From positions 76,247 through 140,246 of the forward strand of contig JAJYIT010000001.1 in the NCBI GenBank assembly GCA_021789975.1: a stretch of DNA of 64,000 nt, in the 5' to 3' direction. Under the pieces are notes generated by a model that was not told where the DNA came from, ran no database searches, and worked only from the letters and a program-made list of their open reading frames with translations. This document shows, in pieces, positions 24,065 through 25,440 of this stretch. This DNA is from Bacteroidota bacterium. GTDB taxonomy: Bacteria; Bacteroidota; Ignavibacteria; Kryptoniales; JAKASW01. The translations under genes and the position numbers were made by a program. Numbering within the stretch: position 1 is the first letter of the stretch; the number at the start of each line of letters is the position of its first letter.

Positions 24065-24691
24065 TTATTTTGTTCTTCGGAAAGTCAAGACGACTTCTCC
24101 AGCGATGAAAAACTGTTTATCATCGGGCAAAAAACTCAAAACCTGGTACGATTTTGTCGAGGGCTTGAGGTTGATCTTGCCGTTTAAGAATTCGTACACT
24201 CTCACTATCAACACGCCGGCGGCACTTCCGAGTACAAGCGAGTCTTGGTCGAAAGTGGTGACTCTCCTGCAGATCACGTAATCGCCTTTGAATAGTCCAT
24301 ACGAATTCATGGCTTCATCCGATACCCTCACTGCAAACAATTCGCCGTCAGGGAGAAGCTTTGCATCGAAGTGGAGTACGTCAACTATGTTTGAAAAGAT
24401 AATATCTTTCGATTCGATTCTGGAGACAACGGGAATGGTTCGAACCGAGCTCGGGAGCGTGGAATTTGACAGTTCATTCTTCGGGAGGTTAATTCCTCGT
24501 GATCTGCCTGCTTCACGCTCAATAAACCCTTTCTTCTCGAGAGCTTTCAGCAAGTCACTTACGGCCCGAGTGGAACTAATCCCCATTTGTTCCCCCAGTT
24601 CACGGAATGTCGGAGGTTTGGAGCGTTCTTTCATGTACTTTCGAATGAATTCGAGCGCTTCACCCTGTCTTTTTGTCAACCCTCTAGCCAT
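24065..24691 (-). CDS. LexA-family repressor lacking the autoproteolysis residues
   Basis: A 208-residue protein with LexA layout. N-terminal winged helix (LTKRQGEALEFIRKYM, PPTFRELGEQMGISSTRAV, ALEKKGFIERE) and a C-terminal S24-like domain (LFAVRVSDEAMNSYGLFKGD, ending FIAGEVVLTFR). Against E. coli LexA, the catalytic Ser (G-x-SM) is Ala127 (DEAM), the catalytic Lys (VKR) is Val163 (IVR), and the Ala-Gly cleavage bond is Ser94-Lys95 (RIESKD). It therefore should not cleave itself on RecA contact. Start ATG 24691 fits LexA homologues (MARGLTKRQ); there is no ribosome-binding site. It may regulate something other than the SOS response, as LexA of Synechocystis does. Confidence 0.88.
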   Translation of the reverse strand: MARGLTKRQGEALEFIRKYMKERSKPPTFRELGEQMGISSTRAVSDLLKALEKKGFIEREAGRSRGINLPKNELSNSTLPSSVRTIPVVSRIESKDIIFSNIVDVLHFDAKLLPDGELFAVRVSDEAMNSYGLFKGDYVICRRVTTFDQDSLVLGSAAGVLIVRVYEFLNGKINLKPSTKSYQVLSFLPDDKQFFIAGEVVLTFRRTK

Positions 24692-24695
24692 GGCA

Positions 24696-24708
24696 GTGTA
24701 AATTACAC
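24696..24708. promoter_or_regulatory. Palindrome at the start of the lexA-like gene, likely autoregulatory operator
   Basis: GTGTAA-A-TTACAC is a perfect 13-bp palindrome lying 4 bp upstream of the repressor start codon. Read on the minus strand it contains TAATTTAC, close to the Bacteroidetes -10 element TAnnTTTG, with TTG 20 bp upstream. A repressor bound here would cover the promoter. Confidence 0.55.
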
Positions 24709-24857
24709 AACACAAGTTTAGGGGTCAAGAAGAACCGGTAGGTGAAAGGGGGACTGTTTAGCAAAGAGATTATAACAGCAAATGGATAATCGAAGAATTC
24801 GAATCGCTAATAAAAAACGAGCAATTCCTAAATTAGGAATAAAGTGATTATTTTCGC

Positions 24858-24887
24858 TTGACTTCTGGGCAATATTGGTTAAATTTG
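24858..24887 (+). promoter_or_regulatory. Promoter of the dcw cluster (Bacteroidetes type)
   Basis: TTGACT at 24858-24863 and TAAATTTG at 24880-24887. TTG-N19-TAnnTTTG is an exact match to the primary sigma factor consensus known from Bacteroidetes, and the -35 also fits general sigma-70. It lies about 95 bp ahead of the mraZ start. Confidence 0.65.
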
Positions 24888-24894
24888 CAACGTA

Positions 24895-24911
24895 GTGGGG
24901 AGAAGTGGGGA
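24895..24911 (+). promoter_or_regulatory. MraZ-binding repeats
   Basis: Two direct repeats GTGGGGA at 24895-24901 and 24905-24911, 10 bp apart, just downstream of the -10. E. coli MraZ binds TGGGN repeats spaced by 5 bp at the same place, so this is probably the autoregulatory site of the mraZ product. Confidence 0.65.
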
Positions 24912-24981: not shown

Positions 24982-25440
24982 ATGTCGTCATTCAAAGGAA
25001 GATATGAATACGTCTTGGACTCGAAAGGTCGTCTGAGTATTCCTGCTAAGCTCAGAAAAAATCTTTCGTCCGAGGCAAGGGATACCTTTGTCGTGACTCG
25101 CGGAGACGAGAAGTGTCTCTACCTGTACCCTCTTGACGAGTGGAACAAACTCGAAGAAAAACTGCACTCACTTAACCAGTTCAAAGAGAAGCACAGGTAT
25201 TTTACCAGAGCCCTCCTCGCCTGGACTTCCGAGGAAATAATTCTGGACTCACAATCTCGGATCAGTGTCCCGAAAAATTTGCTGGAGTTTGCAGAGATCG
25301 AAAAGGAAATCGTGATAATAGGTGCGCTGGAAAGAATCGAAGTCTGGAATCCCAAGAACCTTAACGAATATTTGAATGCACAACCTGAAAATTATGCGGC
25401 GATCGTGGAACAAGTTATGGCGGCGAGTATAGACAAGTAA
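24982..25440 (+). CDS. mraZ: Transcriptional regulator MraZ
   Basis: A 152-residue SpoVT/AbrB-fold DNA-binding protein, first gene of the dcw cluster. Two DxxxR-containing halves are clear: YEYVLDSKGRLSIPAKLRK near the start and EEIILDSQSRISVPKNLLEF in the second half. MraZ represses its own cluster. I chose ATG 24982 behind TCAGGAGGACA; the frame extends 12 codons to a GTG that lies in the leader and would give an unusual N terminus. Its stop codon TAA shares its last base with the rsmH ATG. Confidence 0.95.
   Translation: MSSFKGRYEYVLDSKGRLSIPAKLRKNLSSEARDTFVVTRGDEKCLYLYPLDEWNKLEEKLHSLNQFKEKHRYFTRALLAWTSEEIILDSQSRISVPKNLLEFAEIEKEIVIIGALERIEVWNPKNLNEYLNAQPENYAAIVEQVMAASIDK

Follow-up and report, generated by a model that had tools for sequence, protein, structure and literature searches.

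The window analysed here, a stretch of 64,000 nucleotides from a Bacteroidota bacterium of the order Kryptoniales, encodes a relative of the SOS repressor LexA that lacks the means of self-cleavage, which raises the question of what such a protein controls and how it would be released. The gene (24065..24691, minus strand, ATG at 24691) encodes 208 amino acids with two LexA domains, delimited by Pfam and TIGR profiles, alignment and an AlphaFold2 model: a winged-helix DNA-binding domain (aa 3-66) and a non-catalytic S24-fold domain (about aa 83-206). The profile search gave 75.9 bits for PF01726, 39.1 bits for PF00717 (with profile positions 1-15 unmatched) and 120 bits for TIGR00498 lexA, for which the curated cut-off is 111. 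With its domains (PF01726 and PF00717, or TIGR00498) over the curated cut-offs, the protein, hereafter dead LexA, is a LexA-family member. The closest solved structures in the PDB to its model (mean pLDDT 87) are those of LexA, the S119A mutant among them (Z 15-17), in agreement with the LexA winged helix and S24-type fold recognised in an earlier sequence-only reading of this DNA. No RNA families were matched in the window.

The cleavage determinants were located by aligning the protein to E. coli LexA and to two intact LexAs from the same genome, and a phmmer comparison with PDB LexA placed dead LexA in the identical register. Catalytic Ser119 of E. coli LexA corresponds to Ala127 (codon GCC, 24311..24313, minus strand, numbered from the start codon), and the scissile Ala84-Gly85 bond to Ser94-Lys95 (codons 24407..24412, minus strand), both as the sequence-only reading had stated. 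That reading was also right that the catalytic lysine is lost, but not in naming Val163 (codon 24203-24205, minus strand) as its replacement: Lys156 aligns with the following residue, Arg164 (codon AGA, 24200..24202, minus strand), an arginine that is invariant in two family alignments. The protein has neither the Ser-Lys dyad nor the Ala-Gly (or Cys-Gly) bond of a functional SOS repressor. Since all three determinants are lost, RecA filaments should elicit no response. A check by alignment, as had been proposed, revealed no Ser/Lys dyad elsewhere in the S24 domain. A pseudogene or a sequencing error was ruled out by 12 orthologues from the genus and by low dN/dS; all 12 have Arg at the Lys site and lack the bond, and the Ser site is Ala in 11 and Gly in one (L019).

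A search of the window genome for a second, intact lexA, also proposed earlier, returned two. One (C35:41190), with a G-L-S-M serine motif, the lysine and Ala-Gly, adjoins dinB; the other (C70:2725) has G-D-S-M, the lysine and Ala-Gly. The canonical lexA has GTAGA-N6-TCTAC as its candidate box, and the promoter of the third LexA (L003, on C70) contains the near-perfect palindrome CCGTAC-ATTT-GTACGG, so that the three paralogues have three different putative operators. In the sister family f2, dead LexA is the sole Peptidase_S24 match in five genomes (G013-G017, 93-98% complete), in which no canonical LexA was found, while an intact LexA, with a UmuD-like neighbour, is retained in two others (G018 and G019). 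It is likewise the sole match in four genomes of family f26 (G067, G100, G107 and G200).

Orthologues of dead LexA are present in 12 of 12 other genomes of the genus (79-88% identity) and in all seven genomes of f2 (34-40% identity), a family to whose kind the named Kryptonia records L103, L104 and L118 belong. Further members were found in f5 (MAGs labelled Chlorobiota), Kapaibacterium (L117), two Rhodothermales-type MAGs (L106 and L111) and families f8, f16, f26, f45 and f47. None of the family members examined has a Ser/Lys dyad at the catalytic columns; in every one the serine is replaced by A or G and the lysine by Arg, and Ala-Gly is missing. The window protein carries the same signature (a D-[DE]-[AG]-[ML] motif, Arg in place of Lys, Ala-Gly missing) and falls within the single clade: in a tree from which the three catalytic segments had been removed beforehand, a single branch divided the 27 dead rows from the 45 other LexAs (ultrafast bootstrap 100, SH-aLRT 99). 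Mean identity within the genus is about 88% for dead LexA, as a length-weighted mean of three segments, versus 77% for canonical LexA. The median dN/dS of dead LexA is 0.033 over 17 pairs with unsaturated dS, a rough figure given that most pairs are saturated. One bin (G002) with 5% contamination contains two dead-lexA copies (C26 and C51), possibly a strain mixture.

These comparisons indicate that dead LexA is an old family of several Bacteroidota lineages (Kryptonia, Rhodothermales and Kapabacteria-like), under strong purifying selection, and not the product of a local event. The core of the earlier proposal, a RecA-deaf and re-purposed LexA homologue, gains support from the loss of dyad and bond across a clade under purifying selection and from the canonical LexA beside dinB. 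Outside this clade, two LexA-like proteins of Planctomycetota (L145 and L154) have Ser-like motifs (IKDDSL and VLDQSL), a residue other than Lys at the catalytic position and an altered Ala-Gly, and are perhaps an independent non-cleavable LexA branch judging by their sequences; a LexA-like protein of a Clostridia MAG (L125) keeps Ser but has Arg for Lys and Pro-Gly for Ala-Gly.

The divergent partner of dead lexA in the window is mraZ (24982..25440, plus strand; PF02381, 108 bits), the first gene of the dcw cluster, which is followed in the ORF list by rsmH, an ftsL-like gene, ftsI, murE and murF. A predicted mraZ promoter (TTGACT, 17 bp, AAATTT; 24858..24886, plus strand) is conserved in the genus alignment, and a direct repeat resembling MraZ boxes (two TGGGG copies with a 10-bp repeat; 24896..24910, plus strand) is conserved both there and in other lineages. 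The divergent arrangement is found in the window and in the 10 genus loci with enough flank (L008-L016 and L018), the contigs of L017 and L019 ending too early for the mraZ side. It is also found at 7 of 7 f2 loci, at 10 Rhodothermia-type loci (L106, L111, L228-L230, L234, L237, L244, L245 and L249) and at L224, with mraZ followed at these loci by rsmH and then, where flanks reach, by ftsI and murE. The neighbour on the other side varies, being cstA in the window and L019 and an acs-like gene in L015 and L018. The adjacency persists between dead LexAs that are only 33-40% identical. Within the flanks examined, mraZ is absent from the f5 loci, L117 and L223, and the Kapabacteria-like members are not next to it.

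On its own side, dead lexA has a predicted -35 box TTGACC (24723..24728, minus strand; from the sequence and the genus alignment) and a predicted -10 box TAATTT (24700..24705, minus strand), the latter conserved in position in 12 of the 13 genus genomes, with L018 having it further upstream. The 17-bp spacer contains the predicted operator AAAC-TTGT-GTTG (24708..24719, minus strand), whose Kryptonia-family counterpart is GAAC-AAAT-GTTC. The promoter reads TTGACA-GCTAAACTTGTGTTGTG-TAATTT in the genus and TTGATT-TTTGAACAAATGTTCAG-TATATT in f2; f1 and f2 promoters alike have a 17-bp spacer containing [AG]AAC-N4-GTT, the f1 operator being weakly palindromic. Two further features were noticed. The predicted -10 box stops 8 nt short of the ATG (window 24689-24705), so that the dead-lexA mRNA of the genus may be leaderless. 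A GC[C]GTTAT-like element, conserved in f1 and f2, occupies part of the interval that separates the mraZ promoter from the dead-lexA operator (window 24768-24781).

Many relatives have a second copy of the putative operator. In seven genus genomes (L008-L011, L014, L016 and L017) another [AG]AAC-N4-GTT-like site lies exactly 31 bp upstream. Two palindromes resembling TGAAA-N4-TTTCA lie 32 bp apart in L228-L230, L234, L237, L245 and L106, 22 bp apart in L244 and L249 and 41 bp apart in L224, and the spacings of the operator pairs correspond to 2, 3 or 4 helical turns. The window's own promoter has one promoter-proximal copy, and no tandem second site was found in it. Operator-like sites exceeded those in shuffled sequences (24 versus 3.4 in the genus, 10 versus 2.4 in f2 and 16 versus 1.1 at eight Rhodothermia-type loci), with rows related within each set and counts that are therefore not independent. 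The operators are predicted from conservation and symmetry within a promoter that is itself conserved, among closely related sequences in the case of the genus. The scanned Rhodothermia intergenic regions contained no operator-like site at the mraZ promoter, and the loci of the Kapabacteria-like members have no such operator motif.

Genome-wide scans bear on how far dead LexA might act beyond this locus. In the window genus, the three genomes among the matches listed have an exact match to TAAACTNGTGTTNNGTAA at the dead-lexA promoter only, and in G013 and G017 the genome's single exact GAACANNTGTTC likewise lies in the dead-lexA promoter. The notion that dead LexA is still an SOS repressor on LexA-type boxes, relieved after damage by another route such as a housekeeping protease, draws on the f2 operator GAACAAATGTTC, which has the half-sites of the Bacillus-type SOS box, and on the five f2 genomes that have no other LexA. 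However, in most genomes exact f2 boxes do not clearly outnumber the reversed-pattern control, and no SOS gene was recognised behind those inspected, in a search for operators upstream of recA, uvr or polymerase genes that fell short of a weight-matrix scan of every SOS promoter. The window genus, moreover, retains a canonical LexA beside dinB. RecA-independent variants do exist, as IrvR autocleaves without RecA, but IrvR depends on its Ser-Lys dyad (PMC7101444). Continued SOS control by dead LexA is thus improbable.

Still less probable, to the point of being remote, is a broad regulator that reaches metabolic genes through degenerate sites. The precedent is LexA of Synechocystis sp. PCC 6803, in which Ser is replaced by Asp and Ala-Gly by Gly-Gly, loss of Lys not being reported, and which regulates many genes outside an SOS role (PMC3091678, PMC7567884); a LexA with neither Ser nor Ala-Gly can govern diverse genes (PMC7567884). 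Against this, the palindrome with up to two mismatches gave 20 distinct sites in seven related genomes, of which 14 are the two copies at the dead-lexA locus; the remaining 6, from Rhodothermia genomes, all have two mismatches, and 3 of 5 inspected lie inside ORFs. In the window genus, matches to TAAACTNGTGTTNNGTAA with up to three mismatches showed no excess over the reversed control. Degenerate targets far from the locus may nonetheless exist. The analogy with Synechocystis drawn in the sequence-only reading is accordingly loose: loss of Ser and Ala-Gly is shared, whereas dead LexA has Ala or Gly for Ser and Arg for Lys, forms a clade of several lineages and has a motif essentially confined to a single locus beside mraZ.

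We hypothesize that dead LexA is a RecA-deaf, autoregulating repressor dedicated to the divergent lexA-like/mraZ locus, with a probability of roughly 0.6. In the absence of self-cleavage it would not be expected to respond to RecA filaments. A dimer formed through the S24-fold domain would bind the operator in the spacer between the -35 and -10 boxes, joined in many relatives by another dimer at the second operator, 22-41 bp upstream; the two dimers would perhaps bind cooperatively on the same face of the helix, and the protein's own gene would be repressed. A ligand, partner protein, modification or dilution, and not autoproteolysis, would then bring about release. Since scans of related genomes found the motif almost nowhere else and mraZ is usually divergent, the likely job of the protein is to set expression at this divergent locus alone: that of its own gene, if the predicted operators work, and perhaps mraZ/dcw output jointly with MraZ.

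The two parts of this proposal differ in strength. Autoregulation is well supported in silico, while control of mraZ/dcw, suggested by the conserved neighbourhood, has about even odds or below. As no operator-like site was found at the mraZ promoter, dcw control would need action at a distance. Dead LexA may instead be a local autorepressor only, next to mraZ as a gene-order relic without regulatory meaning: its operator-like sites are all at its own promoter and none at that of mraZ, dcw gene order is generally stable so that a neighbour can hitch-hike, and the Kapabacteria-like members are unlinked to mraZ. We consider this unlikely, as the adjacency survives at 33-40% protein identity with different genes (cstA or an acs-like gene within the genus) occupying the opposite flank, and self-repression alone would hardly explain a dN/dS of 0.03. 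The widest version of the hypothesis, in which an ancient pseudo-protease branch of LexA, freed from RecA, controls mraZ/dcw in several Bacteroidota lineages and senses its signal via the former protease domain, is put forward tentatively, at somewhat short of even chances.

Compared with LexA of the SOS system (TIGR00498), dead LexA shares the two-domain architecture, fold, length, DNA-binding domain and a predicted autoregulatory promoter operator, but has neither the Ser/Lys dyad nor Ala-Gly, no SOS targets seen, and a recognition helix that reads S-T-R-A-V-S-D in place of S-P-N-A-A-E-E. The CI-type LexA of Bacteroidetes has a phage CI-like HTH and an intact dyad and Ala-Gly, controls SOS genes and is autoregulated via palindromes, in a report with no mention of Rhodothermus, Salinibacter or mraZ (PMC8565304). 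Both are S24-family repressors of the same phylum with palindrome autoregulation (predicted for dead LexA), but dead LexA has the LexA-type winged helix PF01726 and has lost the dyad. Leptospira LexA2, also a second and divergent LexA, is 28% identical to LexA1 and binds its own promoter, but its dyad (Ser130/Lys166) is intact and, with a probable Cys-Gly bond, it is thought to be self-cleaved after UV (PMC3789691). In E. coli and M. genitalium, MraZ acts as a repressor of its own operon, and in the latter its motif is confined to its own promoter (PMC8475190). It shares with dead LexA the divergent locus and autorepression (predicted for dead LexA), but belongs to the unrelated family PF02381 and has a separate TGGGG-repeat box on the mraZ side. 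A literature search limited to open-licence papers, and hence weak evidence of absence, found no description of a dead-LexA clade or a LexA-mraZ pairing.

For annotation these results carry a warning: the window protein passes the lexA equivalog cut-off, yet its presence should not be read as a sign of an SOS response, and the warning is strongest where dead LexA is the genome's only LexA-like protein. Documented cases of lost self-cleavage in LexA concern single lineages, Synechocystis for one, whereas here the loss defines a whole clade. Strongly selected and linked through its gene order with the division genes, this clade offers a clean system in which to study what an S24 domain does once it is no longer a protease.
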